From Lonicera japonica (Eukaryota; Streptophyta; Magnoliopsida; Dipsacales; Caprifoliaceae): 64,000 nt of DNA. The translations under genes were made by a program, and so were the position numbers. The notes under the pieces are model-generated. The model had not been told where the DNA came from, made no database searches, and was given only the letters and a program-made list of their open reading frames with translations. The DNA is taken from assembly GCA_021464415.1 (NCBI GenBank), contig CM038467.1:51131309-51195308 (forward strand), read 5' to 3'. Below are positions 20,231-64,000 of this stretch, one piece after another (the stretch's first letter is position 1; each line of letters opens with the position of its first letter).

Positions 20231-20286
20231 CTTCATGTGTGGCTCAGATCTGTCCGTAAGTTTTAGACTGTGAGATGATCATTTTC

Positions 20287-23346: not shown

Positions 23347-23387
23347 ATTCCTTCTTAATTTTCAGCATTAGTGTGTTGGGCTTTTAG

Positions 23388-23394
23388 AATAAAA
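23388..23394 (+). terminator. candidate polyadenylation signal of the RLP gene
   Basis: AATAAAA 42 bp after the stop codon. Plant poly(A) signals are loose; this is only the best nearby match. Confidence 0.35.
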
Positions 23395-27000: not shown

Positions 27001-27138
27001 ATTAAAGGTTCCTTCATGTGTGGCTCAGATTTGTCCATAAGTTTTAGACTGTGAGATCATCATTTTTTATAAATAAAATATCCTTGATGACCTTCTATTT
27101 TCATCCTTCCACCCTACACAAACTTAGTTACAAAAATC

Positions 27139-27713: not shown

Positions 27714-29246
27714 TGTAGACACCCCGATCTGTGACCCTCGCAAGAACCCTAACGACCTTTGAGAAGTACTGTTTTAGGAGTCTGGGACCGACCCGAACAC
27801 CTGAGACTGCCCCGAAAGGGTTTGTAGGCCAAACAAACCTATTTTTAAGAGGAATTGTCGCACGGCAAATGGGAATGTAGCGCGACAATCCCCCTAGTGT
27901 CGCGAGACAAACCCTTCTGACACCAGACCATCCACTCTCTGACACATCAGTCTGTTAGAAACATCACGTCAGCAGTTTATCGCGCGACATGGTACACATT
28001 GTCGCGCGACACTTGCCCTTTTTGGGGAAATGTCGCGCGACAATCTTCCCTGAGCAGTATAAACAGGCCAACACCCCCAAGGGTTCAAGGACGGCAATTT
28101 GGGATTGAAGAATTATTGACTTATATCTGATTTTCTAGTCTTTTGTCAAGCATTCTCAATTATCGTCTTATTTCTGAAGAAATATCGAATCTATTCTCGA
28201 CACTCAACGTGTCCCGTCTCTAGAATCGAATTCTCGGAAATATGTGAAGAAGGAAAAGATTATTATCGCCAGAGATCTCTCTACCGTATTGTATTTTCTT
28301 TCTTATTATTATTCTCATCGGGAAGGTAAAGAAAGTCTCTTATAGTATTTAACATTAGATATCTGTGTACTTGTTTTATTTCTGTTATTTTGTCCACATT
28401 TTATCTGAATAAACTTATCGCCAAGTTACAAATAGTCTACTGTTTTCAAAACAAAAGACCCTGATAAAACCATTTGCAAAACTAGAAGAGTAAGTACATT
28501 ATCGCCCGGATAAAATTCTGTTTTCAAAACCCGGACCGGTAAAACTTACTTAGGAATTAAAAACCTGGTATATCCTATCTCTTTCATAAACTGTGATATG
28601 TTTGGTAGAACTCCCCTCAAGAGTTCTAATTCCATATTAAATTAGTCCCGATACAAGATCCGAACTTTTCCAAAAGAAGTTAAAACCTGAGAAAAACCGT
28701 CATTATCCAAGAAATAATACGGAAAACTCTCTCTGAAATAAAACAACTTTTGTCACTTGTATTTATATATTTCAAAACAAAAATATTGGATCTCGGAACA
28801 CAAAGGTTTTTCATCATTTTCCCGTTTTCCCCAGAAATTAGGGTTTATCACTTGGAAAGTAGTAGACTGTCAGTAAAAGCATCCAAGTTTTTCAGCATAA
28901 AATAAACATATAAGACCACTAGAGACCGAAATGGCGGAATGGGTGCTTAACACCTTCCCAATCCGTAACATAGTTTCCAAACCCTATAGAATCCTGGTTT
29001 CGTAGACAAAAGTGTAAAGAAAGGCCTATATGTAGCCTTTCCTCTTACACGCCCCTTTTGTCCGTTTTCTCGTAAAACGTACTGGCGACTCTGAAAGAAC
29101 GCTCATACATCTAAAAATAGAATATAGGGACACTTGATATGAAAATATCAACTCAAAGAAGCAAATGGAACGACGGAATCATTTTCGACATTTTATACGC
29201 CCAAAACGGGATCGAGACCCGTGGGTCACATTTGTGGATTCTCATA
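27714..29246 (+). repeat. 5' LTR of Tat-A
   Basis: 1533 bp from TGTAGACACC to GGATTCTCATA (expected terminal CA mutated to TA), followed by the PBS. The promoter region holds six palindromic TGTCGCGCGACA-type motifs and a TATA box at 28058. The 3' portion contains GCGGAATGGGTGCTTAACACC and CTCGTAAAACGTACTGGCGACTC, conserved in the Tat-B LTR. Confidence 0.85.
27855..28063 (+). promoter_or_regulatory. Tat-A LTR promoter with TGTCGCGCGACA palindrome array
   Basis: Six matches to the 12-bp palindrome TGTCGCGCGACA, centred near 27861, 27881, 27903, 27983, 28005 and 28036. The last two are perfect, the others differ by one or two bases. TATAAA starts at 28058, 16 bp after the last motif. The same motif occurs upstream of the Tat-A DUF7745-like gene and not in Tat-B. 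Confidence 0.75.
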
Positions 29247-29247
29247 G

Positions 29248-36336: not shown

Positions 36337-37592
36337 CTAATCCCTAGGGGTCAGCCAAGCAGGGTCCTCAGTGGCCAAGTCAATTCGAGCCTCATCCAGG
36401 ATCTGGTACGCAAATACGATGCTCTCCTTCGTGGGCTCAGAATCTATAAACCGGAACCACTCCATTTGGAAGGGATCATCAATTAGCTCCCTTTCCAGAG
36501 ACCCCCCCAACAAGAACGGACGATGTCAGCTCGGAGGGACCTGGAAATACCAAAATGGACATAGTTGAACTGACGAGACAGTCGAGCACGCCACATTCTC
36601 TCCACTGATAAGGAAACATGCTGGGTCACAAACTTAGACTCGAAAGAGAAGTTCAGGCCGAGGGGAATGTCCTGAGGAACGTTGAACTGCCAAAGAAGAC
36701 GTCCTGGGAGATAAAAGGAGGTGAACCAGAGCCCACGGAGCCAAACATAATTCTGCCCCCTAGTACTAAGGACCATCGCCCTCAGTTTCCACCAAGGAAT
36801 GTTCCACCGAATAGCTTGAAAATTCTTCGAAAACCACACCGTCCAATCAGAGGAAGACATGGTCAAAGCACCAAAGAGGGGACGACAAAAGAAATGCGTT
36901 GGATTGTCAAGCCGAACCCCGTTGAAACCCACCGATCGAAAATGCTCCAACAGCCACATGTATAGCTAGCGCGGGCTTCCCCTAAAAAAGGGTGAGGCTC
37001 CCCTTTGAAGATCATCTAGGCCATTCAGAGTCTCTACAAGAATAATGGGCACTATAGACTCCCCATTTCTTGCCTGGTAAATCAAACTCAGAATAGTTGG
37101 ATCAACATGGGAAGAGCCCGTCACCAGTAGCATATCAGAAACAAGACAGATCAAGGCCGCCGCAGTACGCCCCACGCTATAAGAAGCTCTCTCTTCATAA
37201 CAATAAAAGAACCTCACCATTTTGTGGAGGTCAAGAAGCCCGTCGTTAATAAAACCATCACAGGCCGCTTGGAGAATGGCTAACAGAGCGATCAGCATAT
37301 CTCGAGGACCGATTTTTTCTATGGGAACAGCCATCGGGGGACGGACGTCAGAACGCAATAGCCAGGAAAACTCCTCGTAAGTCGAGCAGAGCTCATCTAA
37401 CCCAAAGCGGAAAAGATGATCCGTAGGGCTCCAGAAATACAAAACGCCTAACAAGAAAGAAAAGTCTATAGGACGATGGCACCAGCCTGCTAAAGGACTG
37501 AATGCACCAAAGTTCAAACTGTTTTCAAAAGATATCAGAGAATCTCGAGCTTTAACATAAGAAAAATCAGAGTTTGTGCGATAAGAAGACAT
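36337..37592 (-). pseudogene. Tat-A antisense gene 1, DUF7745-like
   Basis: Minus-strand gene of about 415 codons. It starts at ATG 37592 (MSSYRTNSDF), because the TATA box at 37631-37640 lies 40 bp upstream and inside the longer ORF. Family signs: FSFLLGVLYFWSPTDHLFRFGLDELC...YEEFSWLL, GRTAAALIC, ILVETLNGLDDLQRG...FRGSP, then WWKLRAM/GQNYVWLRG. It aligns end to end with the intact Tat-B gene at 51390-52622. Two lesions are visible: a TAG in place of a codon after FRGSPR (36966-36968) and a frameshift near a G6 run at about 36505. DUF7745 proteins are plant-specific, often retrotransposon-associated, and of unknown function. Confidence 0.8.
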
Positions 37593-37630: not shown

Positions 37631-37710
37631 TATTTATAGCAAAAAAGAGGGTCATGTACCTGTTTGTCGCGCAACAAACCTATATCCAGGAGGGATTTTC
37701 GCGGGACAAT
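37631..37710 (-). promoter_or_regulatory. promoter of Tat-A DUF7745-like gene with the Tat-A LTR palindrome
   Basis: On the minus strand: GCTATAAATA (37640-37631), preceded by two motifs close to TGTCGCGCGACA, TTTGTCGCGCAACAAA at 37663-37678 and TTTCGCGGGACA at 37697-37708. These match the motif array of the Tat-A LTR promoter. Confidence 0.65.
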
Positions 37711-38035: not shown

Positions 38036-41000
38036 CTAATCTATCCGAGCGCGCTTTGACACGCTCCCACTGTCACCCGAACCCTCCTTCGGAGTAGGAT
38101 CGACTGCTGGGACATCTGAAGGAGGAGGAACTGCTGCCTGAGAAGGCCTCGTCGACTGGACCAATGCCGTGGGGCAAATCACCGACGATTGAGATCGCCT
38201 AGAGGTCCGACTAGTGCTCCTCTGGGACTCCGTCCGAGCACGAGAAGAAGACAGAGGGTCATCTGCCCGCAGAGAAACATCGATCGCCCTCTTATAGTCA
38301 CGCATGTATATCGTGGGGTCTCAACCAACGTACTGGAGCAGGTTCCAGTTGTAGAGATACTGGGAATGCCAAGCTCTCAGGTTTGTTACACCACGCTCAC
38401 CCGCTAAAAAAGAAAAGAAAAGGGAATCAGCACAGTTAAAATAAATAAACACGAATATAAAGGGATATTAAGGGAAGAAAAAGCATGTACCTCATCATCA
38501 GGGCGACCACCCAAGTAGTAGAACGTATCCTCAGGAAAAGGATACTCGGGCACCGTGTATCGACGTAGACTGGCACCAACATAAGAGATGTCCCACGGAA
38601 GTAGCGGCAAATCTACCGGATGAACAGACGAACCAGCCGGTATAGCAGCAGAAGTAGACCCACCTTACTCGCGGATCGGGAACAAAGAAGGGTGAGAAGA
38701 CGAGCCAGCAAGATTGGGAGAACAGGCCGGAGGACCCATAATAGTAGATGGAAGCAGAGTCAAGGTGGTGTAAGTATGAACACCCGGAGGATCCGCAATA
38801 GCCATCGCTCGCAGAGGCAGGACCCCACTAGAAGGAGTGGTAGCAGCAGCAGGAGCGGTCCGCCCAAACTGCTCATAATCAATCCCGAGGTCCGTAGGCT
38901 CCCAGGATCGCTCAGAAAAAGCTGCTCCCTCTCTCTCAGTAGACTCCGCAGCATCAAAAATGACCCCTAGAGATACCGACGGAAACTCAAAACCCTCAGC
39001 GCGCTGCTCCTCCATGGGTGTCGTCTGAGGCGGCTGCTTTGGAACAACCGCTGCCCTACCTCCCTCGCCTCCCTTGGGTCTATCATCTCCACCCTCGGCA
39101 ACAGCAGGAATACCCCTCTCTCCCTCGGGGTTATCGTCGTCAGAATAAAAAATGTTGTCCCTCTAATCGGGGACAGGCAGCAGCTGACCGGGGACCATCC
39201 TGGACAAATGGGTCTGTCCTCGTTTATAGTTGGGATCACCTCCCAATGCCCTGTACCTCTCATGGAAGACCCGTCCCGGAGTCCCCTTCGGCTCCCTCAT
39301 CAAATAATGGGCAGCGAAGGCAGTGTAGTCTCCCTCCTTTGTAAACGTCTGAAAGCTGAGCCTGTCCACCAAGACCTGCACTGTCACTGAGTCAATCTCG
39401 CCCGTCTGCCTCATCAGAACCGTTGGAAATAAAGGAACTCGGGGCCACTGGGCTGGTGTGTGCTGGCGAATAACTCTCTCGCCCAAGTAAAAGTGAAGGC
39501 CATACTCATCCCTGATAAACCGCCTGCTCCTCGAGGTGGTCAGAGCGTGGCCATATCCGAAGTGGAGACCCAGATCACCCTAGGGGGCCCACTCAATCTG
39601 AACGAGAACAAAATTTTATTTCAGTTATTTATATTCTATTTACTATTTATCTATTTGAAAAGAAAGAATACTAAAATATTTACCTTCTCCTCTAGCAGGT
39701 CATGGATGGCAGCGGCTCCGGTCTCCCGAGTCTGGTATACATAGGGAGCCCTGTAGTTCCCTGCGATGAATCTGCGGAGAAGGGGAAACTGATCCTCGTT
39801 CTAGACGAGGAGATCCACATGGGCGCGACCCAGATGGGTATAAGCCACAAACCAAGTCAGAAGAGTGGACATAAAGAATATCAGCAACAATCAACAGATA
39901 ATATGTAAAGGATAAGGGAACAAAAGTATGTATCTCCCATAGCAATGAGAAGCCCTTAAGGTTCAGGGCTAAATGACAGGAAACCTGGTCCATATCATTG
40001 TAAAGAACAGCAAGGATAAAGCCCCACAGTCATAGTCGAACATGATACTGACGTCTCGAAGATAGGGCAGCCACCAGAGATGGGTTGTGTCCCCCCCACG
40101 GGCCTCGAACAGATCATGGAGCGTCAGCAAGAGAAGGACGCAGGCATACTGACGCGCCTCTTGGCGGGTCATTGGCACCCCAGAAGCAACTAACTGGGCT
40201 CTCTCTATAGCCAGGCGCGTAACCAAAATCGCCCGAGGCATCGTGTGCCCGAACTCCGTAGCTCAGGAAACCAGCCAAGTGCGCCCACGATGCCCTCTGC
40301 CGTCAGACGCAAAGGGACATCAATCTGGATAGGGACCCCCTTGAAGGAATCCCGGTCAGAGCAAATAGGTCTAAGGAGGTCATCGTCATCTCGCCCCAAC
40401 TCAAGTGGAAGGTATGAGTAGTATCCCACCAATGGGAGGCCAGCGTCGACACCAAAACTGCCGCCCTAGATACACGCTCCTGGAGGGCGTCAAAGAGAGA
40501 ACCAAAAGGAGTCACAAGAAGCAACTCCTAGACAGGGGCCGGTGCCTGTCGGCACTCTAGAGAAATAGTGTTGGGAGAACCCCAACCTCGGCCGACCCAC
40601 TACAGACAGAACGAAAATATAAATATAAGAAACCTAAGGGTACTTTAGTGTAATTATGAGAGTTATAGGGTTATAAGGGTAAAATATGTAATTTTCCAAA
40701 ACCTGAGGGTACTTTAGTGTAATTATAAGAGTTATAGGGCTATAAGGGTAAATTATGTAATTTTCTAAAACCTGAGGGTACTTTGGTGTAATTATGAGAG
40801 TTATAGGGCTATAAGGGTAAATTATGTAATTTTCCAAAACCCGAGGGTACTTTGATGTAATTATGAGAGTTATAGGGCTATAAGGGTAAATTATGTAATT
40901 TTCCAAAACCTGAGGGTACTTTGGTGTAATTATGAGAGTTATAGGGCTATAAGGGTAAATTATGTAATTTTCCAAAACCTGAGGGTACTTTAGTGTAATT

Positions 41001-41523
41001 ATAAGAGTTATAGGGCTATAAGGGTAAATTATGTAATTTTCCAAAACCTGAGGGTACTTTGGTGTAATTATGAGAGTTATAGGGCTATAAGGGTAAATTA
41101 TGTAATTTTCCAAAACCTGAGGGTACTTTAGTGTAATTATGAGAGTTATAGGGTTATAGGGGTAAATTATGTAATTTTCCAAAACCTGAGGGTACTTTAG
41201 TGTAATTATGAGAGTTATAGGGTTATAGGGGTAAATTATGTAGTTTTCTAAACCTAAAGGGTATCACAAGTAAAAGTATGTGTTCACTAAATCGGACGCT
41301 ATTTCTAGACAGACATGCATACTAACATTCTTCAAAATACATGCAGGAAACGACAGAAATAATAGAACAGATAAATACACGAAAAGAAGACATAACAGAA
41401 ACCGTCGACGGATCTCATGAGAAACAGGCTCCATCAAGAGCCACGAAACATCCGAGATTGGAGCAGCCCGGGTAACGTCTCAGTAGACCACCGCCCGTCC
41501 TCGGTCCACCCCATCTTCGCCAT
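38036..41523 (-). pseudogene. Tat-A antisense gene 2, plant mobile domain (PMD) protein, broken
   Basis: Multi-exon minus-strand gene matching the Tat-B PMD gene exon by exon. Exon 1 (SWLLMEPVSHEI near 41430) is cut at 41524 by an LTR. Exon 2 starts about 40599 with TPFGSLFDAL, WWDTTHTFHLSWGEMTMT, MTRQEAR and GGDTTHLWWLPYLRD, with several frameshifts. Exon 3 lies near 39870-39690 with one stop. Exon 4 (GERVIRQHT..., FAAHYLMREPKG) runs about 39590-38490, ending in donor GATGAG|GTAC. The last exon ends SVSKRARID at 38036. The TTHTFHxxWGEMT block is the PMD signature (PF10536 family). Intron 1 is inflated by a 69-bp minisatellite. Dead copy. Confidence 0.75.
40633..41252. repeat. 69-bp minisatellite, nine copies, in intron 1 of Tat-A PMD gene
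   Basis: Units begin CCTGAGGGTACTTTRGTG at 40633, 40702, 40771, 40840, 40909, 40978, 41047, 41116 and 41185, with a trailing partial at 41253. Period is exactly 69 bp with only a few substitutions. Because 69 is divisible by 3, a spurious 182-codon minus-strand ORF of 23-residue repeats runs through it. Confidence 0.95.
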
Positions 41524-41830: not shown

Positions 41831-43056
41831 TGTGAACACCCCAATCCACGACTCTCGTGCGAACACTGGTTTTCCTAAAAACAAAGCATCTCACATCATG
41901 TATTGAGTCATCATACATATAGAAGACCGTTAGGAAAAGACTCCATTTTCGGCCGCGTTGGGAGTCTAAGATAACCTTTATTGCCCCGTTAGAAAAATTA
42001 AGTTTTTTGATAGCCAGCCGCACGCCACCAACCGTACGGCTACCTGCCAGCCGTACGGTTGGCTACCAACCGCACGCCCCTGTCGCAGCCCCCAGCCGCA
42101 TGTCCTGCGGCTACCCCCAGCCGCACGCTACCAACCGCACGCCCTGCGGCTACCCCCTGCGGTTGGGCTCCTTTGGAGTGTTTTTGGCGGAATTTTTGCT
42201 ATAAATAGGACCCTTGGGGTCTCATTTGGCATCATCAACACTCACTAGTGTTTTTAGTAAGTAGAAGTTCTGTCGAAATCATTGGAGAGTCCTCTTTTAG
42301 AATTTCTAGTGAGAGAAAGTTCTAGAAAGAGAAAGTTAGTGAGAGAAAGCTCTAGAGAGAGAAAGTTCTAGAGAGAAGGAGGCAAGCAAGGCGATCAAGA
42401 CAAGGTTCTTATTTCTTCTTCAGGCGCGTCAGGTACGTCATTCTGCCACTTTACTAATTTTAATACTGCATTTGAATTCATTTTTAATATAGAAAGTTAG
42501 ATAACTTGCAAAGAAGTCCATTGCTTTCAAAATAAATCCTTTCTAAGTTTTACAAGAAAACTAAAACTCGTTTTGACACGTTTTCAAAACAAACAAAAAT
42601 ACAAAAATAGTTTCCGAAGAAAGGAACTACGAGACTCTGATTTCATTCTATAAATGAATACGTAGGCGCTCGCAAAGCTCGAGTCTGATTTCAAAATATT
42701 GTTTTAAACTGAATTTATCCGGAAAGGACTATTCTGAAAACTATTCAAACTACTTGCAAGATATCTAAAATAGGAATTATATACATGATCCATTAAGAGA
42801 CCGAAAGGGCGAATTGGGTGCCTAACACCTTCCCAATTCGTAACGTAGTTCCCGAACCCTAGCAAAGTAAATTTTCAAAATAAATCTCTGGTTTCGAACG
42901 TATGAAAGATAATTCGTTCTCGAATTGTCCTTTGTACGGTCTTTTGTTTGTTTTCTCGTAAAACAAACTGGCGACTCTACAAAACAAGTTTCCAAATAAA
43001 ACCGAGAACGAGGACCGATTCTTCTATCACGGGTCGCGGGGGTCTGGATTCTCACA
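41831..43056 (+). repeat. left (5') LTR of Tat-B
   Basis: 1226 bp, TGTGAACACC to GGATTCTCACA. U3 carries the CCGTACGG palindrome array and TATA box (42199). The first 200 bp or so are essentially identical to the right LTR; the R-U5 part differs at many sites and lacks a tandem duplication of about 50 bp present in the right LTRs. Confidence 0.92.
42013..42207 (+). promoter_or_regulatory. Tat-B LTR promoter with CCGTACGG palindrome array
   Basis: Palindromic sites include AACCGTACGGC (42030-42040) and GCCAGCCGTACGGTTGGC (42046-42063), followed by partial sites of type CCAACCGCACG, CAGCCGCACG and CTGCGGCTA to 42167. The first full centres are 19 bp apart. The TATA box CTATAAATAGG starts at 42199. 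The array is repeated in both other LTR copies and upstream of both antisense genes. Confidence 0.8.
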
Positions 43057-43057
43057 G

Positions 43058-51389: not shown

Positions 51390-52622
51390 TCAATCGTCCG
51401 CAGAATATAAGATCCTCTCTCGCTCCATGGTATGATAAGAAGCAAGAACTGTCTCATCTGTTACTCGGGAATCCACAAATCGGAACCATCTCATCATCAT
51501 AGGCTCATGCTCAATGGTCTGGCGAACCCGACGCCAGATATGCAACACGACATCAGACCGAGTCGCCCGGGTAATGCCAACCTCTCCTGCACGAAATCGT
51601 CGAACATAGTGGGTGGACCACAAGCTCTGCAGCGTAGTCTCCAATCTCGGGGTGACGAGAAGAGCCACCGAAGAGAAATCTCTCAGTGGAAGGGGTATAC
51701 TCAGAGGAACACAAAACTGTCTCGTCAGCCTCTCGGGTATATAGAAAGATGTCTCCCTCAAACCGCGAAATCGAAGGTAGTTCTGCCCACCCATGCTCGT
51801 AATCATAGTCCTCATACGCCACCATGGAACCTCCCAACGAATCGAAGAAGAGGACTCAGAAAAACGGACAGCCCAATCATATGATGACAGACGATGAATC
51901 CGGGCATAATCAGGACGCTGGAAGAAGTGTCGAGAGTCCCAGGGAAGCCGAGTCTCCAAGTACCAAAATCTCTCAGTAACCCACATGTATAACAGATATG
52001 GGCTACCCCGAAAGTGGCTAAGTCGGCACTGAACCACGGCATCCAGACCATTCAGTGTCTCTGCCAGTAAGATGGGAGTCACCAAATGGCCACATCTAGC
52101 CTCAGACACCACCCGAATAATAAGAGGATCAACCATAATCGCATCATTAGTAACTAACAGCATCTGAGAAAAAGTAAAGATCATACAGGCAGCAGTCCGA
52201 CCTGAAAAATAAGCCGGATCATCGCCATGCTGCAGGAAGAAATCAGCCAGGCGATGCAAGTGGAGCCGTCCATGTACAATCATCGGTCGGCACTCGCTCT
52301 CTCGCAAACCCAAAAACTCCGCCAACATAACCCGAGGGCTCCTCGCATCCTGCAAAGACGCCAACGGCCATGAGAGGTCCTGGCGCATCAGCAAAGTGAA
52401 CTCTTCGATCGTAGGGCAGAGCTCGTCTAACCCAATACGGAAACAATGATCCTCAGCATCCCAGAACTCAGTAAGACCAAGCAAGAAAGAAAAGTTAATA
52501 TCATGCGAACACCAACGGTGAAGATGGCTCAGATCTCCCCAGTTGAGACCGCAATCAGCCTCGGCTAAGGATACGAAATCGGTCAAAAGGGAGAAAGAAG
52601 CATGGGTATGAAAAGTGGACAT
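51390..52622 (-). CDS. Tat-B antisense gene 1, DUF7745-like, intact ORF
   Basis: Intact 410-residue intronless ORF on the minus strand, ATG at 52622 about 90 bp after a TATA box (near 52715). Features: FSFLLGLTEFWDAEDHCFRIGLDELCPTIEEFTLLM, GRTAACMIFTFSQMLLV, TPILLAETLNGLDAV, FRGSPYLLYMWVTERFWYLE, then a tryptophan- and arginine-rich half (WEVPWWRMRTM, GQNYLRFRG, ERLTRQFCVPLSIPLP, HIWRRVRQT). The FW-x-F...PT-x-EE, AET and LLYxW pattern is that of DUF7745, a plant-specific domain of unknown function common in retrotransposon-associated proteins. No catalytic motif visible; the basic, aromatic C-half could bind nucleic acid (inference). Tat-A has an orthologous gene in the same place with two lesions. 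Confidence 0.82.
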   Translation of the reverse strand: MSTFHTHASFSLLTDFVSLAEADCGLNWGDLSHLHRWCSHDINFSFLLGLTEFWDAEDHCFRIGLDELCPTIEEFTLLMRQDLSWPLASLQDARSPRVMLAEFLGLRESECRPMIVHGRLHLHRLADFFLQHGDDPAYFSGRTAACMIFTFSQMLLVTNDAIMVDPLIIRVVSEARCGHLVTPILLAETLNGLDAVVQCRLSHFRGSPYLLYMWVTERFWYLETRLPWDSRHFFQRPDYARIHRLSSYDWAVRFSESSSSIRWEVPWWRMRTMITSMGGQNYLRFRGLRETSFYIPERLTRQFCVPLSIPLPLRDFSSVALLVTPRLETTLQSLWSTHYVRRFRAGEVGITRATRSDVVLHIWRRVRQTIEHEPMMMRWFRFVDSRVTDETVLASYHTMERERILYSADD

Positions 52623-52708: not shown

Positions 52709-52832
52709 TTTTTATAACAAATTGCACAGGCCAACCGCACGGCTGGCAGCCAACCGTACGGCTGGCCTACCAACCGTACGGCTGGCTCCCAACCGTACGG
52801 CTACCCCTTGCGGGTAGTGCGTGCGGTTGGCT
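52709..52832 (-). promoter_or_regulatory. promoter of Tat-B DUF7745-like gene: TATA plus CCGTACGG array
   Basis: On the minus strand TATAAAAAG (about 52717-52709), preceded by sites with the 18-bp form GCCAACCGYACGGCTGGC, centred at 52738, 52757, 52777 and 52796 (19-20-bp spacing), plus a half-type site GTGCGGTTGGC at 52822-52832. The first site is about 12 bp from the TATA box. Confidence 0.8.
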
Positions 52833-53361
52833 CTTCCCCTTGGCCAAAAATCTCCGTTTTTCCAAAATCTTTATTCTTCTTTACAATAATACATTATGGT
52901 ATGAACGTTGCCAGACTCTATTCAGGAAGAACGATCCATTCATTGCATGCATATAAATTTAACAATCACTTGCCAACACGAGTACTTGACCATTTTCGTA
53001 ATTAAAATTCAGTCACTTTTAACAATTTCGCCAATGCATATAATTAATTAATCATCTTTCATTTTATTCAAGTTCAAAATGTTTTTACCAACATGTGTTA
53101 TATAACCGTTTCTTCCAAACACACTTGCAATAAATTTATAACATCCACAACACATCACACGCAAACATGTTTTATCCAAAGAAGCATAATTTTTTATTTT
53201 CATTATCAAAACCGGTCACACTAATAAACCAACATTTTTTTCCTAACAAAACAAACACATTTTAAATTAACCACTAAAGTAACAAAGTTTTTTACTAAAA
53301 GTCAAAACATAAACTAAATTAACTACTTAAAATGTCTTTCCTAAAAACCATCACTCAAAAA
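52833..53361. other. spacer between the two antisense genes of Tat-B
   Basis: AT-rich, no ORF with a motif. Serves as the region between the end of the PMD gene and the DUF7745 promoter, both on the minus strand. Confidence 0.5.
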
Positions 53362-53364
53362 ATG

Positions 53365-56300
53365 TCAACGCTGAGGGGAAGGGGGAGGATCCATCGTGCG
53401 CGGTCGCTTCGCTTCTGTTTCTCCAGCACCCTCCGCTGGGCTCTCCGAGACCGGACGACCCTCGCCATGAGGAGAAGGACCAAGCCGGGATGTACGCCTC
53501 GACTGCTGGACTGACTGGGACGGCGCCACCGATCGGGACCGCGAGCGTGACGGATGGTAGCTGACAGTCGTATCGCCCGCCAGACGCCTACTGTACCGCC
53601 CCATGTAATCCGTCGGAAAAGGAGCCGCGAATGTCAGCAGTCCGTACATGTTGAAGTAGCTCCTCAGCAACTCAGCTACCTCGCGAAGACGGAATAAGCC
53701 CATCTGCCACAAAACCAATTTGTTAGTTTTCATTTACAATAATTCACGTATACTTAACTTTTTTAAAGGATAACATACCTCCTCGTCCGTGACGTGCGCT
53801 AGGGCCCCCATCCGCTCGTCGTCCACAGGAATATCGGGAATCCGGTAGCTCTTCGGTAAGCCGAGATCCAGGTAAGGGATGTCCCGCGGGTACTCTGGGA
53901 GCGAGTAGGACGTCGACGCCCCACCAGCCTGTGACAGACCAGCTCCACCAGCGCCGCCCGCAAGGGGTGTGTCCTCCCCGGTATCCTCTCCTATCTTCGG
54001 CTCAGGCGCCACCGCTTTGCCTTTCCCCTTGTCGCCGCCCTCACCGGCCGGAGTCTGACCAATGCCTGCCTCCACCCCTAACTGCGCCTCCCTCTCTCCC
54101 AACTCCCGGAAGACGATTCCACGAGCAGCTCCTGATGAAGGGGTAGACAGGGAATACGGCCTCAACCCCACTGACCCGGCGCCAGGCGACCCAACTGGTG
54201 TCCGCAGCAATGGCGAGAAAGATACATGCTGGGCCCAATCCATATCTTCTGGCCCCAACACAGGGGACGATCCCGACATCGACCCGCGACCCTCTGGCGT
54301 CTGCGCCGCCTCCAACATCTGTCTAATGTCCTCCGACGAGAGCTGGGGTGTCCTCCCGCCCATCGCCGGTGGAATGGGCGGCCTCGATACAGGACTCCTA
54401 CCTCCCAATGGACTCCTCCCGCCCCTCGTAGCCCTACCTCGCCCGGGCGAGACCGCAGCAGTCGGCCCCTCGACCCCTCCTCCGCCTGACCCAACCGGGG
54501 GCGATCCACCGTTGCCTCCTCCCAAGGGGATCTCCTCCGACCCCCATTCGTCCTCCTCCTCCTCCTCCACATGCTGCAGCTCCTCATCCCTCTCGCCATG
54601 CGGATCTTCATCGTCCGAATCTGCAATCCCCTTCGCCCTCCGGTTCGGCGCAGGAGCGGGCTGGTGTGGGACCCTCTGCGAGATGTACAGCTGCCCCCGG
54701 ATGAACAATGGATCTCCCCCGACGGTAGCGTATCTCGCATATATCACCCGGCCACGCATGCCCTTCATCTCCCTCATCAAATAGCGATGCGCGAACGTCC
54801 CGTACTCCCCCTCAACCAGTAAGCCCTCCATCGGGACCCCTCCCAAGAACGAAGCCCGCTCCTCTGACGATAGCATGACCGTTCGCCTCATCGCCACTGG
54901 AGGCCAGGCCGGAACCCTAAAACCTAGCCCGAGAGTGTGCTGCCGTACCACGCGCTCCCCTAGGTAGAAAGATGCACCGTACTCATGCAAAAATAGTCGC
55001 CTCGAGCGAGCCGCCGCCAACGCATCTGCATACCCCCACTGCTGCGTCACGAATGCGGGCCATGGGCTCCACTGCACCTGTCACATTAAACATGCGCTAA
55101 TAAATAACTCAACTTTCTTTTATAATTTAAATCTTAGTTAAGTCAATCTCATACCCGATCTAGCTGGAGGCCTGAGACGTCGCCCGCACTGACGTCTGGG
55201 GTCAGATACCGATACACCCCAACTATGTTCCCGCTGTAATACCGTCTGAAGAGCGGGAACTCATCTGCAAAGGTCGGGTGCAAATGAATCTGACCAATAC
55301 CCTGATGGGTATGCGCAATAAACCACATCTGTTGCAAATTATCACAATTTTTAGGAAAAAACCGTTAATTCTTATTTAATAATCACACGCTTTTCTCATA
55401 AAAAGATAATTGAGTTTTTTAATTTAAGTAATTCACCTCCCAAAGTGTAACTAGCCCGCGGTGATTGAGCTCCATATGCCGACACACCAAGTCCATCGAC
55501 TCGTACAGCACCGCCAATACATAACCTCCCCAGGCAAATGTGTACAGCTGATCGAAGAACCGCAAGTACGGCAGCCACCATAGCCGTAGGTTATCGCCGC
55601 CCCGTGCATAGAAGAAGTCGTGTATCAATAGTAATATGAAGCACCGAGACAGCTGTCGGACCTCCTGCCGTGTCATTGGTCCGTCCCCAAACCTCTCACT
55701 CTCCGCCTCAATATGCTGCACCATCGCCGTGTGAGGTATCCCGTCTGCCACAATCCGGCTCGGTCTCCAACCTAGTGCCGCACCCATCCCATCTAGTGTG
55801 ACTCGTAACCGGGGGTTGGACGCCAAAGCCTCCCCTCCAAAAGGCAGTCCCGTCAGCACGAACACGTCCTCTGGGGTCAGCGTCATCTCGCCCCAACTCC
55901 AATGGAAGGTGTGCGTCGTATCCTACCATCTCTCTCCCAGTACTGTCGGCAGACTCACTGATCGCTGGAACTCTCCGCCAGGCAGCACCTCGATAAAACG
56001 TCCGAACGGGGTCGCGCTCAAATAGGCCCTCACCAGCGGGGGTAACTGATCTCGTAGCTCGGGCGCGGCACGTGTGATACCGCGGCAATGTCCAATCCTC
56101 TGTAACAATCATGTGTTTAAATAAAATTTAGAACTCACTATTTAATGCTGGATAATGCAGATTTTAAGTAAACTATGTTAAGTATGTTGATTATGGCAAG
56201 TAATTATTAAACTTATCATATTGTATGCATATCATGACATTGCATATTTCAACATCATATAGCATAAAAATCAGAACATACCCTAGTACTGCGGCAGATC

Positions 56301-56587
56301 TCGTGTGCCGCAGGCTCCATCAGTAGCCACTCCCGTCCCTCTCCTGGAGAGATCAAGGGCACGTCACGATACATCGCTCGCTGCAGCGACCCGTCTGCCC
56401 CCAATGGCCCCTCCCAAGCCACCCCCTCCCAATCGTCGTGGTGGCTAGCGCATATCAGTCGTCCATCCATCATCGTCGTGATAGAGTCCATCTCGTCGCC
56501 CGGAAGTAGCTCCGGTACCTCCCCGCCCTCCGGTGGGCCCCCCATCATCATAAAAGCGAAAATAGATAGTAGCCTCGCAAATGCCAT
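53365..56587 (-). pseudogene. Tat-B antisense gene 2, five-exon PMD protein with one nonsense codon
   Basis: Exons on the minus strand: 56587-56282, 56099-55437, 55328-55155, 55077-53779, 53703-53365. All introns have GT/AG ends and all are phase 0; about 926 codons. Exon 2 has the PMD signature: TPFGRFIEVL, ERW[stop]DTTHTFHWSWGEMTLTPEDVFVLTGLPFGG, MTRQEVRQLSR, GGDNLRLWWLPYLRF. Exon 4 adds FLHEYGASFYLGERVVRQHT, HRYLMREMKGM, an acidic stretch (HVEEEEEDEWGSEE) and a Gly/Pro/Ser-rich disordered region; exon 5 ends in a basic KRPRTMD tail, possibly a nuclear signal. The only lesion seen is TAG at 55923-55925 where Tat-A has TGG. PMD domains occur in plant DNA transposons, gypsy elements and host proteins such as MAIN and MAIL1. 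Confidence 0.82.
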
Positions 56588-56695
56588 CGCTCACACTCGT
56601 GTAAAAATTCACAAAATATTTTTGAAAATTGGATATTTGTATGCTAGAAAGAGAAGTTGCAAGGAGAAGTGGTGAGATTGATTCAAAACAGGCCA

Positions 56696-56860
56696 CTATT
56701 TATAGGAAATAGGAGCCAGCCGCAGGTTAGCCAGCCGTACGGCTGGCCCCCAACCGTACGGTTGGCTCCCAGCCGTACGGCTGGGGGGTCAAACCCTGCG
56801 GCTACCCCCAACCGCACGGCCCTAGCCGCACCCCCTGCGGCTACCCCGTGTGGCTACCCT
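56696..56860 (-). promoter_or_regulatory. promoter of Tat-B PMD gene: TATA plus CCGTACGG array
   Basis: On the minus strand CCTATAAATAG (about 56706-56696), about 110 bp before the ATG. Immediately upstream are three perfect palindromes, GCCAGCCGTACGGCTGGC (56730-56747), CCAACCGTACGGTTGG (56750-56765) and CCCAGCCGTACGGCTGGG (56768-56785), with centres exactly 19 bp apart, then partial sites CCCTGCGGCTACC and CCAACCGCACGG to 56850. Confidence 0.85.
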
Positions 56861-57732
56861 CATTTTTGACCAGTTTGACTTAAAAAAAATTAAAAAAAAA
56901 AAAAAAAGTGAAGGGAAAAATAAACACAGTTCTGAACCAATCTTTCCCAGCACAAGAGGATCAAGACTCACACACAAGCACGGAATGACTGATCAAAGCC
57001 CAAAGTCCGACACTCCAGGGACTGTGGAGGAACCGAAGTTCAAAAGAATAGATCTATTGTCCGGAAGGCTCGAATCTGATTTATAAACAGGGAAGGTGTA
57101 AAAGATGAATCGGGTACTAGAAAAATTTGAAAGAGTAGAAAAGGGTAAAATCCCGTTGGTCCAAGAGAGGAAAAAGTGAGGAAAAGAAAAATAAAAATGA
57201 AGGAAATCGACAGGGAGAGCCACGCTAAGAGTGACAGCTGTGCCAAAAGGTGGAGGGCTACATCTTAGGTGAGTAAGGCTCCTGTCTTGGAAAAAGCCAA
57301 GAAAGAAAAGGCAAAGTAAAATCCGAAAGCCCAAAAATAAAAAGGGCCGGATAATCAAAAGAGGGAGCAATAAGGGTATCGAAAAACAGAAAACGATACA
57401 GGACCAGCATCTTCCCTGTAGAAAAATCAGAGGGTAGCTTGAGGATGATTGGGAAATCCAAACGAAATTCTATCCCCATGACCGAAGAGAGGAAGACTGA
57501 GGGTAGAGAAATGTCAGATCCCAAAATTCAAGCACAACGGTCCGAAGGTCTTAGGAAAGGTTGATCCAAAATTATGATTCCCGATAAAGCCAAAAGTCAA
57601 AACTGAGGGCAGAAAAGAATGGAAAAAAAAAGGGCACTCCAACTTGCAAAACATTTCTCTCTAGCATGTTATTTCTTAATAATAAACCAACAAAGCAGTA
57701 GCGGAGTCATGGCAATGAGACAAGGTTAGTAA
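56861..57732. other. purine-rich spacer in Tat-B, no gene
   Basis: Strongly purine-biased plus strand (many GGAAAAAG, GAGAGGAAA runs). Minus-strand ORFs here are low-complexity shadows. Confidence 0.5.
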
Positions 57733-58405
57733 TTTTCTCGGATTCCTCTGAGTTAGGAATTCTTCGCATTCCCCACGAGGGGAATTTTTCCGAAACCACT
57801 TTCCCCACGAAGGGAAATAACGACTCCACGAAGGGAATTTTCTCGGATTCCTCTGAGTTAGGAATTCTTCGCATTCCCCACGATGGGAATTTTTCCGAAA
57901 CCACTTTCCCCACGAAGGGAAATAACGACTCCACGAAGGGAATTTTCTCGGATTCCTCTGAGTTAGGAATTCTTCGCATTCCCCACGATGGGAATTTTTC
58001 CGAAACCACTTTCCCCACGAAGGGAAATAACGACTCCACGTGTTCCCCACGAAGGGAATTTTCTCGGATTCCTCTGAGTTAGGAATTCTTCACATTCCCC
58101 ACGATGGGAATTTTTCCGAAACCACTTTCCCCACGAAGAGAAATAACGACTCCACGTGTTCCCCATGAAGGGAATTTTCTCGGATTCCTCTGAGTTAGGA
58201 ATTCTTCGCATTCCCCACGATGGGAATTTTTTCGAAACCACTTTCCCCACGAAGGGAAATAACCTTTACCGCCTATTCCCCAAGAAGGGAATTTTTCTCG
58301 GATTCCTCTGAGGTAGGAATTCTTCGCATTCCCCACGATGGGAATTTTCTCCGATCCCCTTTCCCCACGAAGGGAAATAACCTGTACCGTGATTTCCCCA
58401 CGAAG
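57733..58405. repeat. 105-118-bp hairpin-rich tandem array in Tat-B
   Basis: Units start TTTTCTCGGATTCCTCTGAG at 57733, 57838, 57943, 58059, 58175 and 58293, so periods are 105, 105, 116, 116 and 118. The last unit degenerates after 58340. Each unit contains several copies of the foldback TTCCCCACGAWGGGAA; the longer units gained an 11-bp GTTCCCCACGA-type segment. It lies between the accessory genes and the 3' LTR; satellite-seeding arrays at this position are known from Ogre/Tat elements. ORFs across it are spurious. Confidence 0.92.
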
Positions 58406-58866: not shown

Positions 58867-60154
58867 TGTGAACACCCCAATCCACGACTCTCGTGCGAAC
58901 ACTGGTTTTCCTAAAAACAAAGCATCTCACATCATGTATTGAGTCATCATACATATAGAAGACCGTTAGGAAAAGACTCCATTTTCGGCCGCGTTGGGAG
59001 TCTAAGATAACCTTTATTGCCCCGTTAGAAAAATTAAGTTTTTTGATAGCCAGCCGCACGCCACCAATCGTACGGCTACCTGCCAGCCGTACGGTTGGCT
59101 ACGAACCGCACGCCCCTGTCGCAGCCCCCAGCCGCACGCACCAACCGCACGCCCCTGTTGCAGCCCCCAGCCGCACGGCCCAGCAGCATGTCCTGCGGCT
59201 ACCCCCAGCCGCACGCTACCAACCGCACGCCCTGCGGCTACCCCCTGCGGTTGGGCTCCTTTGGAGTGTTTTTGGCGGAATTTTTGCTATAAATAGGACC
59301 CTTGGGATCCCATTTGGGATCATCAACACTGAATAGTATTTTTAGTAAGTAAGAACTCTGTCAAAATCATTAGAGAGTCCTCTTTTAGAGAATTTCTAGT
59401 GAGAGAAAGTCAGTGAGAGAAAAGGCTAGTGAGAGAAAGTTAGTGAGAGAAAGCTCTAGAGAGAGAAAGTTCTAGAGAGAGAAGGAGGCAAGCAAGGCAA
59501 TCAGGACAAGGTTCTTATCTCTTCTTCAGGCGCATCAAGTACGTCATCCTGCCACTCAACTAATTTTAATACTGCATTTGAATTCATTTTTAATACAGAA
59601 AATTAGATAACTTGCAAAGAAGTTCACTACTTTCAAAATAAATCCTTTCTAAATTTTACAAGAAAACTAAAATTCGTTTTGACACGTTTTCAAAACAAGC
59701 AAAAATACAAAAATAGTTTCCAAAGAAAGGAACTACGAGACTCTGATTTCATTCTACGAATGAATACGTAGGCGCTCGCAAAGCTCGAGTCTGATTTTCA
59801 AAATACTGTTTTAATCTGAATTTATCCGGAGAGGACTATTCTAAAAACCATTCGAACTACTTGCAAGATATCTAAAATAGGAATTAGATGCATGATCCAT
59901 TAAGAGACCGAAAGGGCGAATTGGGTGCCTAACACCTTCCCAATTCGTAACGTAGTTCCCGAACCTTAGCAAAGTCAATTTTCAAAATAAATCTCTGGTT
60001 TCAAACGTATGAAAGAGAGTTCGTTTTCGAATTATCCTTCGTACGATCTTTTGTTTGTTTTCTCGTAAAACAAACTGGCGACTCTACAAAACACGTTTTC
60101 AAATCAAACCGAGAACGAGGACTCTTATCTCGGGTCGTGCAGGGGTCCGGATTC
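58867..60154 (+). repeat. right (3') LTR of Tat-B, forward, last 5 bases missing
   Basis: Starts TGTGAACACC and runs to GGATTC; the terminal TCACA seen in the left LTR is absent and the sequence switches to the inverted PBS. Contains the same palindrome array and TATA box as the left LTR, with an extra tandem duplication of about 50 bp near 59125-59180. Confidence 0.9.
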
Positions 60155-60170
60155 CCCAGCAGAGTCGCCA
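60153..60170 (-). promoter_or_regulatory. inverted PBS at the centre of the LTR palindrome
   Basis: TCCCCAGCAGAGTCGCCA is the exact reverse complement of the 18-nt PBS at 43058-43075, with a single spacer base (60171) before the inverted LTR, as in the normal element. Its outer edge coincides with the junction to the forward LTR, with a TTC overlap. Confidence 0.9.
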
Positions 60171-60171
60171 C

Positions 60172-61464
60172 TGTGAGAATCCGGACCCCCGCGCGACCCG
60201 AGATAAGAGTCCTCGTTCTCGGTTTGATTTGAAAACGTGTTTTGTAGAGTCGCCAGTTTGTTTTACGAGAAAACAAACAAAAGATCGTACGAAGGATAAT
60301 TCGAAAACGAACTATCTTTCATACGTTTGAAACCAGAGATTTATTTTGAAAATTGACTTTGCTAAGGTTCGGGAACTACGTTACGAATTGGGAAGGTGTT
60401 AGGCACCCAATTCGCCCTTTCGGTCTCTTAATGGATCATGCATCTAATTCCTATTTTAGATATCTTGCAAGTAGTTCGAATGGTTTTTAGAATAGTCCTC
60501 TCCGGATAAATTCAGATTAAAACAGTATTTTGAAAATCAGACTCGAGCTTTGCGAGCGCCTACGTATTCATTCGTAGAATGAAATCAGAGTCTCGTAGTT
60601 CCTCTCTTTGGAAACTATTTTTGTATTTTTGCTTGTTTTGAAAACGTGTCAAAACGAATTTTAGTTTTCTTGTAAAATTTAGAAAGGATTTATTTTGAAA
60701 GTAGTGAACTTCATTGCAAGTTATCTAATTTTCTGTATTAAAAATGAATTCAAATGCAGTATTAAAATTAGTTGAGTGGCAGGATGACGTACCTGATGCG
60801 CCTGAAGAAGAGATAAGAACCTTGTCCTGATTGCCTTGCTTGCCTCCTTCTCTCTCTAGAACTTTCTCTCTCTAGAGCTTTCTCTCACTAACTTTCTCTC
60901 ACTAGCCTTTTCTCTCACTGACTTTCTCTCACTAGAAATTCTCTAAAAGAGGACTCTCTAATGATTTTGACAGAGTTCTTACTTACTAAAAATACTATTC
61001 AGTGTTGATGATCCCAAATGGGATCCCAAGGGTCCTATTTATAGCAAAAATTCCGCCAAAAACACTCCAAAGGAGCCCAACCGCAGGGGGTAGCCGCAGG
61101 GCGTGCGGTTGGTAGCGTGCGGCTGGGGGTAGCCGCAGGACATGCTGCTGGGCCGTGCGGCTGGGGGCTGCAACAGGGGCGTGCGGTTGGTGCATGCGGC
61201 TGGGGGCTGCGACAGGGACGTGCGGTTGGTAGCCAACCGTACGGCTGGCAGGTAGCCGTACGGTTGGTGGCGTGCGGCTGGCTATCAAAAAACTTAATTT
61301 TTCTAACGGGGCAATAAAGGTTATCTTAGACTCCAAACGCGGCCGAAAATGGAGTCTTTTCCTAACGGTCTTCTATATGTATGATGACTCAATACATGAT
61401 GTGAGATGCTTTGTTTTTAGGAAAACCAGTGTTCGCACGAGAGTCGTGGATTGGGGTGTTCACA
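60172..61464 (-). repeat. third LTR of Tat-B, inverted
   Basis: Reverse complement of the right LTR over its full 1.29 kb with only about a dozen differences by eye, ending GGGGTGTTCACA at 61464. It shares the tandem duplication of the forward right LTR, so it is closer to that copy than to the left LTR. It is followed directly by the GATAC target sequence. Confidence 0.92.
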
Positions 61465-64000
61465 GATACCATTCTACAACTTTCGTGTTTTGACCGAAGT
61501 CCAATTCACGCTTCTCGTTTGTCAAAACATCGTGCAAAGTAGGCCGGTTACTAAATTATGATCGTTCGGTAGCATTTCGGCAGAGCACTGTCTTCGGAGC
61601 ATTTATGGAAATTATCCATTCATAATTTGGGAAAACTTCCTCTCACAAAGTTGTAGACCTTCGAGTTATCTTTTCGTGGACATAAAGATCACCCACATCG
61701 GAGTTCCGAACAGAAAGTTATGACATTATTACGAACAGTGCTCCATATCCAAAATGCCTATTCTGGCAGTGGACTCCATGATCGATCATGGTACCCTGAA
61801 GGTCGGTTTTGACTGTGTTTAACTCGATTTTTCACCTCTTTAAACCCCACAGATCACCATTTTTGACCAACACACATACACAACACATTTGGGGGTTCTT
61901 GAGTGAGAGAGTTAGGGATTTTTGAGGAATCATTGAGGGTTCATCTTTTCTATACAAGATTTGAGGCCAAATCCGCACTATTCATCATCCTCTTCCTCTC
62001 TCCCACCATTGGAGCTCAAGCGGAGAAGCTAGGGTTTCGTGATCTTGACGAGGGAGCATCATCAAGCCTTCAATTATGGAATTTAAGCTATTGAGAGGTA
62101 GGAACACTAGTATAAAACTTCTTTTACAAACCTTTACGTGTTGTATTAGCGATTTGTACTTAAATTGGGGAATTTCTACAAAAACCCTAGGTGGTATGCA
62201 TGTTCATGGGGTTGGGCTAGATTAATCTTCGATTGGCGTTAGATATTGATGGGTTCTTGCAACTATTACATGTTTTGAGCATTTAATCCATGTTTTGACT
62301 TATATATGATATGATTCATCAAGAACCCATCTCATACATACATGTTAAGCCTAGGAATTTTGGGGTTTTGGGATTTAAGCGTGTTTGATGGTTGTTTAGA
62401 GGTATTAACGTTAGAAATATTTACTTCTGCTAATAGAAGAGATTGTAGGATACCATTTATGATGCTTACCCCAAGAACCCGTTTGGGCTTAATGTAATAC
62501 AACGGCTCTTGAGTCTAGAGCATCGTACGATACATGGTAGGTACTAGTAACACGAATATGATCTAGATACCATATAATAGCGTAGCAAACAGGCATTGGC
62601 GGGGCATGGGTTGCCATAGCCATACATGCTCACTTAGTCTAGTATGCCATATGAACACCGGTTGAACTAGAACCACAATAATCAATGCTTGGCTGGCTAG
62701 AATGACACGAGAACCCACATAAGTGGTATACGGTATTGGTTTTATACACTTGATACGTTAGACAATGGGAAATGTCAAATATGACCTAATTGGCTATAAG
62801 GCCATGGAATACAAACGTGATAGTGATGCTATCGATAACGATGATTATGTAACGATGACAATTGTGTGATTATATATATACATATTGTTAGCCATGCGTG
62901 TGATAGATGATTGATGATTGTATACACTGCTACGTGAGGAATCGAGATATTCCTGTTATTACGATCACACGTATGGGATGGATATGATGATTTACCGAGC
63001 ACCGGGTAGCTCCCCGTGACTCGAAGGAGGGCCGCCTATTGCCGCCCGTAGGTGAAAAGGCCCTAAACCGTGCATGGGGAAAATGAAGTCCGTGACTCCG
63101 CCGGTGGTTGTGTGTGTCCACAAAGGAGAGCCCACTCTAGGTATCTTGCCTTCCGACAGGACTAAGTGTTCTCGGTTAGATGAGTTTCCCCGGCAGCGGA
63201 GCAGGTCCAGTGTGCCACTACTTTCCCAATGGTGAGTTTCCAGGAAAGTATTTGGGCTACTAATGGTCATTACCCTGCTAGGGTGTCGCCTGTCGTAGTT
63301 CTTTCCAGAGTGTCGAGATGGCTTGTATGAGGTGTTCTCCTCGTTAACTATTCGGAGTGTCATTCCCGGGAAAATGTCTTGAGGGTTATCTCCGAATGAC
63401 CTACTCGGAGAACCAAGTCCCTGAGCTAGTCCCCACTCGGAAAAGACATGGACAAGAACCTCGGAGTCTTCAGGATCAGTTGTTCTGGGCCTGGACTGAC
63501 CGCGGGGTGAAACTGAGGCATTATGCTGGAGACGTGACACGAGAGCTATTGTGAGATTGTTGATTATGTTATTATTATTGTATCGTATCGTATCATGTCT
63601 CGTATAAATTTATGTATGTTACCTCGGCTATGATATAAATGATGTAGGGATGAAAGCAGACAATATCAGACAGACAGGGTACACATATAGAACTATCAAG
63701 CCTTTCATAATGTATTATATATAAGTGGAAAGAGATGATAACGGTGAGCCACAGATATAGAATATGGGCGTGGGAATAAGTGTGATTCATGAGACTTTAT
63801 AGCCGGATCATAATGAACCTAAAGCACTAATAATTGAAAGGGAAATCATAACGAACGAAATAGCCTACTGAGAGAACGCCGTAATATAACACTTAGACGA
63901 ATGATCTTGAGCTAAAAGCCTATTTGCTGGCCAAGTATACGATTCATAATAAATTATGAGTAAAGTGGAAACAATAAATACTTGGCCTATAGTTATTGAC
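61465..64000. repeat. right part of the second TGTAA-type LTR (continues beyond window)
   Basis: Continues from 41830: CATTCTACAACTTTCGTGTTTTGACCG matches the reverse complement of about 26757-26785, and CATAAAGATCACCC, CCTACTGAG and other blocks follow in inverted order relative to 24249-27000. No gene recognised; ORFs near 63000-63540 have no motif. The terminal TGTTACA end is expected just past the right edge. Confidence 0.75.

Follow-up and report, generated by a model that had tools for sequence, protein, structure and literature searches.

Palindrome arrays matched between LTR and antisense promoters in two Tat-type retrotransposons suggest element-specific regulation

Elements and antisense genes at the locus

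The window, i.e., the whole stretch of DNA analysed (64,000 nucleotides), contains two LTR retrotransposons, here called Tat-A and Tat-B, the features of which are listed in Table 1. Between its LTR repeats Tat-B carries Retrotrans_gag, RVT_1, RT_RNaseH and rve domains in Ty3 order. A second RNase H-like domain after the RT-RNase H serves as a criterion for Tat elements; in Tat-A it was detected within 32604-33605 (RVT_3, E 1.4e-19), and Tat-B 49331-49756 resembles this stretch, as judged by eye only. On domain order and this second domain, both elements are probably of the Tat type. No partner for the presumed Tat-A 5' LTR and no further Tat copies were found in the rest of the 64-kb window.

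Both elements carry two antisense genes. The DUF7745 proteins of Tat-A and Tat-B are 42-43% identical in their main pieces, and the PMD domain of Tat-B was located at 55419-55886 (PF10536, E 4.4e-12). The PMD promoter of Tat-A is not recognisable, since other DNA seems (by eye) to begin near 41,520, shortly beyond the match to the first exon (41390-41488).

Table 1. Positions of the elements, genes and arrays in the window. For the Tat-B arrays, sites are 16-base sites; core matches are matches to CCGTACGG.
Element	Feature	Position	Strand	Evidence and details
Tat-A	Presumed 5' LTR	27714..29247	+	Limits from TG start and PBS-type sequence at 29248
Tat-A	U3 array	27855..28043	+	Six TTGTCGCGCGACAA-type palindromes, each with 1-2 mismatches (27855, 27875, 27897, 27977, 27999, 28030); TATA starts 28058
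Tat-A	Antisense DUF7745-type gene, interrupted	36364..37592	-	tblastn against Tat-B DUF7745 protein, E 4e-84
Tat-A	Antisense DUF7745-type promoter	37633..37709	-	TATA first base 37638; two Tat-A palindromes, 37664-37677 (1 mismatch) and 37696-37709 (2 mismatches)
Tat-A	PMD-type antisense gene pieces	39115..41488	-	First-exon match 41390-41488, E 1e-5
Tat-B	5' LTR	41831..43057	+	Repeats, LTR comparison; PBS-type TGGCGACTCT starts 43058
Tat-B	U3 array	42013..42170	+	Full palindromes 42028-42043 and 42047-42062 (core matches 42032, 42051), then half-sites; TATA starts 42200
Tat-B	Antisense gene 1, DUF7745	51390..52622	-	Open 410-aa frame; PF24924, E 1.3e-8
Tat-B	DUF7745 promoter	52711..52804	-	TATA first base 52716 (minus strand); four palindromes, sites 52731, 52750, 52770, 52789 (core matches 52754, 52774, 52793)
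Tat-B	Antisense gene 2, PMD-type	53365..56590	-	Several open pieces; extent judged by eye
Tat-B	PMD promoter	56699..56860	-	TATA first base 56704 (minus strand); palindromes, sites 56731, 56750, 56769 (core matches 56735, 56754, 56773)
Tat-B	3' LTR	58867..60154	+	Own array copy: full palindrome 59083-59098 (core match 59087); 59064 site has 3 mismatches
	Third LTR copy, inverted	about 60177..61466	-	99% identical to 3' LTR; array sites 61233, 61252 (core matches 61237, 61256)

Palindrome arrays and their match between promoters

The first-pass annotation had described palindromes with a shared core directly upstream of a TATA box in the LTR U3, the DUF7745-like promoter and the PMD promoter of Tat-B. 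These arrays were confirmed: the core CCGTACGG occurs 11 times in the 64,000 bases of the window against 0.27 expected, a count reached by 0 of 100 shuffles, and all 11 matches fall in copies of the Tat-B LTR or in one of the element's two antisense promoters. The first site of the DUF7745 promoter (CCGCACGG) is one base off. The 16-base sites of Table 1 were defined by at most 2 mismatches to CCARCCGTACGGYTGG. The claimed centre spacings (19, 20 and 19 bp in the DUF7745 promoter, 19 and 19 bp in the PMD promoter, 19 bp in the LTR) were reproduced as stated; they come close to the proposed two helical turns, but at 10.5 bp per turn they are a little too short, and the phase of the array drifts as a result. 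TATA boxes were found in the claimed directions, those of the gene promoters being opposite to that of the LTR. Placement directly upstream of TATA applies to both gene promoters and not to the full LTR sites, which lie 145.5 and 164.5 bp upstream with degenerate half-sites between; half-sites also continue past the palindromes of the PMD promoter to about 56855. In all three antisense promoters (two of Tat-B, one of Tat-A) the nearest palindrome lies 22-35 bp upstream of TATA. Phasing of the palindromes relative to TATA (p 0.048 for four full sites, 0.042 when one half-site is included) is only suggestive and carries no weight as evidence. A search for clustered GC-rich 14-mer palindromes that made no assumption about their sequence recovered the Tat-B DUF7745 and PMD promoters and missed the Tat-B U3, which has too few sites above the cut.

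When a matrix was built from the two Tat-B 5' U3 sites, the seven antisense-promoter sites scored 21.2-25.3 and the next non-LTR match 13.9; a threshold of 21.2 gave 0 hits in 150 simulated 64-kb sequences. The Tat-A motif had been spotted by eye in the antisense promoter before its matrix was applied. When the matrix was built from the six U3 sites of Tat-A, the top non-LTR matches in the 64 kb were the pair in the antisense promoter of this element (18.9 and 14.6), followed by one at 12.5; 150 simulations of 64 kb gave 0 hits at a threshold of 18.9 and 16 at 14.6, and the weaker site alone is within chance (15.8 vs. a 300-bp null maximum of 16.8). On cross-scanning five promoter regions, the Tat-B matrix reached at most 3.6 in those of Tat-A and the Tat-A matrix at most 8.2 in those of Tat-B, and neither palindrome occurs in the tested promoters of the other element. 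Tat-A and Tat-B (n=2 elements) thus have the same LTR/antisense-promoter architecture with unrelated palindromes. The covariation between U3 and antisense-promoter motifs that the annotation had proposed to look for is borne out, in a two-element version, by these element-matched motifs, which lend partial support to its reading of a common regulator of LTR and antisense promoters.

Copying, host factors and DNA structure

The annotation had also held that the array is reused and not just read through. This is right, and copying contributes, as homology between the Tat-B arrays spans their whole length, with alignments over up to about 150 bp, and the arrays run in one physical orientation. 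Alignments in the same physical orientation exceeded inverted ones for LTR-PMD (92 vs. 46), LTR-DUF7745 (65 vs. 47) and PMD-DUF7745 (87 vs. 67), with null maxima of 25-29; the idea that the LTR promoter had been copied in inverted form was rejected on this ground. The alignment of the PMD and DUF7745 promoters extends into both TATA boxes. Because its arrays are homologous throughout and its antisense promoters align into TATA, Tat-B alone does not separate selection from copying. The U3 tandem array could have been duplicated inward by gene conversion or by template switching in the course of reverse transcription, with no regulatory meaning, and antisense TATA boxes would then have arisen next to the copied array. 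The better alignment in the same orientation and the alignment through TATA favour such passive copying, as does the mosaic structure of the two Tat-B LTRs, which changes near the array end (2/347 mismatches vs. 64/871). In Tat-A, however, the motif is common to both promoters and the flanks of LTR and antisense promoter show no homology above simulation (22 vs. a maximum of 24 of 300), so that the palindrome itself appears to have been kept; moreover, the distance of 22-35 bp between nearest site and TATA in all three antisense promoters is not predicted by the copying of arrays alone. Passive copying as the whole explanation is considered unlikely. No clear homology was seen in the leader regions past TATA (19, 23 and 18 vs. 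null maxima of 28, 28 and 29; the score of 23 is above its 95% level of 20).

Host transcription factors might instead bind the arrays, each element having captured a different factor and reused its site across promoters. Plant LTRs are commonly driven by host factors, and TATA-type promoters are present here. The GTAC core within CCGTACGG is an SBP/SPL-like site, and CCAACC resembles the AC elements of R2R3-MYB factors. All GTACs in the three Tat-B promoter regions sit in palindromes (2, 3 and 3), and isolated GTACs occur in Tat-A at 1 per 227 bp of U3 and 2 per 301 bp of promoter (27992, 37656, 37721; window mean 2.7 per kb). Against this, GTAC occurs in 0 of 8 Tat-A palindromes and is thus not common to the palindromes of both elements, a near-perfect 16-bp palindrome exceeds what a GTAC core requires, and unrelated palindromes in related elements would call for two captures, each at the LTR and at an antisense promoter. 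Capture of host factors is accordingly rated as fairly unlikely.

Finally, the palindromes could act through chromatin or nucleic-acid structure (as methylation targets, cruciforms or RNA hairpins of the 3' U3) and not as protein operators. The Tat-B arrays are GC-rich, CpG observed/expected ranges from 0.73 to 1.25 over five arrays, and of the four positions at which the arrays of the 3' and the inverted LTR differ, three are C/T. The CpG ratios of the Tat-B arrays (0.73-0.96) are nevertheless like those of the element interior (0.80-0.97), and structure accounts neither for one specific sequence per element nor for placement upstream of antisense TATA boxes; it is held to be highly improbable.

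A putative element-encoded regulator and known systems

On balance, we favour an element-specific dimeric factor that would govern LTR and antisense promoters alike and would most likely be encoded antisense. A palindromic operator private to each Tat element, repeated at a spacing of about two (in some cases three) helical turns, would lie upstream of the LTR TATA and of the TATA of one or more antisense accessory genes. Its recognition by the factor would couple genomic RNA to accessory gene expression. The DUF7745 or the PMD protein is the most likely candidate and may activate, or relieve silencing of, its own promoter and the LTR.

Both antisense genes are conserved and diverged. Between Tat-A and Tat-B their proteins are constrained (pN 0.37-0.40, pS 0.72-0.78) and only 42-46% identical, compared with 74% for RT, 67% for RNase H and 62-78% for integrase core pieces. 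Such divergence under constraint might be expected of a factor that co-evolves with its site. Fast divergence is not peculiar to the antisense genes, since identity is similarly low in gag pieces (38-50%), in the N-terminal portion of the pol frame (38%) and at the integrase C-terminus (51%). With gag and pro diverging to a similar extent, and with the alignment between the two antisense promoters continuing through TATA, the regulator is given slightly less weight and passive copying slightly more.

At E values up to 10, DUF7745 was the sole Pfam listing for the Tat-B DUF7745 protein and PMD the sole listing for the PMD piece (HMMER filters can lose very weak matches). A DNA-binding domain was identified in neither antisense protein. 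PDB sequence searches returned one weak match with the DUF7745 protein (E 0.95) and one with the PMD piece (E 1.1), and structure prediction for the DUF7745 protein from three aligned rows gave no usable model (mean pLDDT 33.5). Neither the DUF7745 protein nor the RT polyprotein had matches in viral_contigs; a scan with the 16-mer palindrome hit 27 stretches, with one site listed per stretch, and these were read as chance. One archaeal locus found in genome_contigs with the Tat-B integrase (28% identity) was taken as unrelated. No plant relatives were found in the DNA collections scanned.

More tentatively, plant Tat LTR retrotransposons may carry private lock-and-key circuits, in which an antisense DUF7745 or PMD protein would bind a family-specific palindromic operator at the LTR and antisense promoters; with LTR and interior copies of the operator homogenised by template switching during reverse transcription, regulator and site would diverge together as new element families arise. 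The shared, element-specific operator suggests that the antisense genes, which are not known to have a function, may be dedicated self-regulators. The arrays provide DNA targets for direct binding tests of the antisense products. As the PMD domain also occurs in the host silencing proteins MAIN and MAIL1, such a circuit, if true, would offer a lead on its role at DNA.

Members of the Tat/Ogre clade, a group of plant Ty3 LTR retrotransposons, carry additional ORFs in antisense orientation, and the present elements resemble them in gag, RT, RNase H with a second RNase H-like domain, integrase and antisense ORFs; operators common to LTR and antisense promoters are not known to have been described in this clade. 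The anti-silencing VANC proteins of VANDAL MULEs, invoked by the first-pass annotation, are a precedent in concept only: the VANC domain is DUF1985, which at E values up to 10 was not among the Pfam listings for the Tat-B DUF7745 protein or PMD piece. VANDALs likewise combine an element-encoded accessory protein with a short element-specific motif repeated in their own non-coding DNA, and such a motif is present in both Tat-A and Tat-B; Tat elements differ in being LTR retrotransposons whose arrays of long palindromes lie in promoters, whose accessory genes are antisense and for which binding is putative. TnpA of En/Spm binds repeated subterminal sites and the promoter, which is similar in the repeated element-specific sites by a promoter; En/Spm, however, is a DNA transposon, and its sites also serve transposition. 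The Tas transactivator of foamy viruses acts on the LTR and an internal promoter, just as one element-encoded DNA-binding factor would here drive the LTR and the promoter of an internal accessory gene, except that the internal promoters of Tat are antisense and the factor is only putative. If true, a sequence-specific self-regulating circuit of the VANC or foamy virus type would operate in a group of plant LTR retrotransposons.

Elements and their surroundings

The DNA of the window looks plant-like, with an LRR receptor-like gene, Tat-type elements and a PMD domain. Two Tat-like Ty3 LTR retrotransposons, Tat-A and Tat-B, each carrying antisense DUF7745-type and PMD-type genes, were found in it; no partner LTR for Tat-A was found within the window. 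Tat-A starts directly behind a partial second copy of the LRR receptor-like gene and therefore appears to have been inserted into that copy. A 69-bp minisatellite flanked by Tat-A PMD pieces probably lies within an intron, since a first-exon match was found past it. The Tat-B tandem repeat (six copies, period 105–118 bp) has the PMD promoter on one side and the 3' LTR on the other. The inverted third LTR copy, 22 nt away from the 3' LTR, is 99% identical to it, and the 22 nt contain the reverse complement of a PBS-type sequence. The flanks at the outermost ends match at 4 of 5 positions, as if a palindromic-ended structure (Tat-B plus inverted LTR) had gone in as one unit.

Coordinates and properties of the features in the window
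Feature	Position	Remark
LRR receptor-like gene, first copy	20362-23346	
LRR receptor-like gene copies (first and partial second) with the start of Tat-A	20220-27717	
Tat-A 5' LTR (presumed)	from 27714	
Tat-A U3 TATA	28058	
Tat-A antisense DUF7745-type TATA	37638	
Tat-A antisense-promoter palindromes	37664, 37696	spaced 32
Tat-A PMD-type C-terminal-end frame	38036-38320	minus strand
69-bp minisatellite	40548-41330	
First-exon match	41390-41488	
Tat-B outermost flanks	41826-41830; 61465-61469	CATAC; GATAC
Tat-B 5' LTR	41831-43057	
Tat-B DUF7745 gene		open frame, 410 aa; PF24924, E 1.3e-8
Tat-B PMD gene		in pieces; one piece PF10536, E 4.4e-12
Tat-B PMD-type C-terminal-end frame	53365-53733	minus strand
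Tat-B tandem repeat	57721-58396	
Tat-B 3' LTR	58867-60154	end approximate
Third LTR copy	60177-61464 (60155-61469 with the 22 nt and the outer flank)	inverted

Palindromes in LTR and antisense promoters

The first-pass annotation had described a palindrome array common to the LTR and both antisense promoters of Tat-B. This observation holds, and it is made stronger by the second element, Tat-A. The core of the Tat-B palindromes, CCGTACGG, occurred 11 times in the window (0.27 expected; 11 reached in 0 of 100 shuffles), always within the LTR copies or the two Tat-B antisense promoters. The 16-base sites, the spacings and the TATA boxes were as described, but two points were corrected: one base differs in the first site of the DUF7745 promoter, and the full palindromes of the LTR, which had been placed directly upstream of the TATA box, are 145–165 bp distant from it, the interval being occupied by ARCCGYA-type half-sites.

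The Tat-A U3 carries six palindromes of the type TTGTCGCGCGACAA, with 1 or 2 mismatches each and centre spacings of 20, 22, 80, 22 and 31. Two more were found in the promoter of the Tat-A antisense gene that is homologous to the DUF7745 gene of Tat-B (42% identity, E 4e-84). The promoter palindrome was first spotted by eye, and a matrix was afterwards trained on the six U3 sites only. Over 64 kb, the two antisense-promoter sites ranked top outside the LTR (18.9 and 14.6; next 12.5); 150 simulated 64-kb sequences gave 0 matches of at least 18.9 and 16 of at least 14.6. With an earlier matrix, to which a weak seventh site had been added, the same two sites led outside the LTR (18.6 and 15.8; next 11.3). 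None of 2000 simulated 300-bp promoters attained 18.6, although the null maximum (16.8) was above the score of the weaker site.

Upon cross-scanning, the Tat-B matrix scored at most 3.6 across the two Tat-A regions (U3, DUF7745-type promoter), and the Tat-A matrix at most 8.2 across the three Tat-B regions (U3, DUF7745 and PMD promoters). Together with the matches in the elements' own promoters, these low scores show that each motif is private to its element and common to LTR and antisense promoter (n=2 elements). The covariation proposed earlier as a test was thus seen in both: the LTR and antisense-promoter motifs match within Tat-A and within Tat-B.

A sequence-blind scan for clusters of GC-rich palindromic 14-mers picked out four places in the window, namely the DUF7745 and PMD promoters of Tat-B, the Tat-A U3 and an unrelated spot at 4828. 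The Tat-B U3 and the Tat-A antisense promoter were left unflagged because they have either too small a number of sites or too many mismatches within them to pass the threshold. Of twelve simulated sequences, ten contained no cluster and the remainder one or two.

Possible copying of the arrays

Passive copying as the source of the common arrays accounts well for Tat-B, in which homology extends over whole stretches (null alignment maxima 25–29). The LTR and the PMD promoter aligned over ~150 bp with a score of 92 in the same physical orientation and 46 inverted, the LTR and the DUF7745 promoter with 65 and 47, and the PMD and DUF7745 promoters with 87 and 67, the last alignment extending into both TATA boxes. 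Origin of the antisense promoters by inversion of the LTR promoter was rejected, because the arrays share physical orientation and the antisense genes read the opposite way; a spread that kept the orientation, as template switching might bring about, would fit. A simple single insertion is expected to show even divergence between its LTRs. Those of Tat-B are mosaic (2/347 mismatches in the array-bearing U3, 64/871 in the remainder after the array), which suggests that homogenisation has taken place in the array-bearing part. Copying fails, however, to account for Tat-A: its LTR and antisense promoter aligned with a score of 22, no excess over the simulated maximum of 24 (n=300), and these promoters appear to have the site itself in common, with no detectable copied stretch.

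A candidate factor and known systems

The most probable explanation is that the palindromes in U3 and antisense promoters would be bound by a dimeric factor whose specificity is private to the element, and that this binding would couple the activities of both. The main rival explanation, binding of the arrays by host factors, draws on the GTAC core of the Tat-B palindromes, which is of the SBP type, but this core is present in no Tat-A palindrome; three isolated GTACs occur in the Tat-A regions. The distances from the nearest full site to the TATA box (21.5, 22.5, 32.5 and 34.5) lie near whole helical turns at p ~0.05 only, and this trend carries no weight in the interpretation. The prime candidate for the putative dimeric factor is an antisense-gene product, given that specificity differs from one element to the other.

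The Tat-A antisense genes are clear homologues of those of Tat-B; the three Tat-A pieces compared with Pfam reached no family cut-off. Among the compared pieces, identity between the elements was 42–46% for the antisense proteins, 74% for RT, 67% for RNase H, and 62% and 78% for two integrase pieces. Rapid change is no peculiarity of the antisense genes, because divergence was as great in gag pieces (38–50% identity), in the N-terminal portion of the pol frame (38%) and at the C-terminus of integrase (51%). Past constraint on the antisense frames is indicated by saturated synonymous (pS 0.72–0.78) and unsaturated non-synonymous differences (pN 0.37–0.40). PDB sequence searches with the DUF7745 protein and the PMD piece found no convincing solved relative, and no DNA-binding fold could be recognised. 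Basic stretches (KRPR, KRAR), NLS-like by eye, occur in the PMD-type C-terminal-end frames of both elements.

The VANC domain, DUF1985, is absent from the Pfam listings for the Tat-B DUF7745 protein and PMD piece, and VANC membership is therefore not claimed. In concept, the Tat case would be comparable to VANC of VANDAL elements, and likewise to foamy virus Tas, which acts on both the LTR and an internal promoter.
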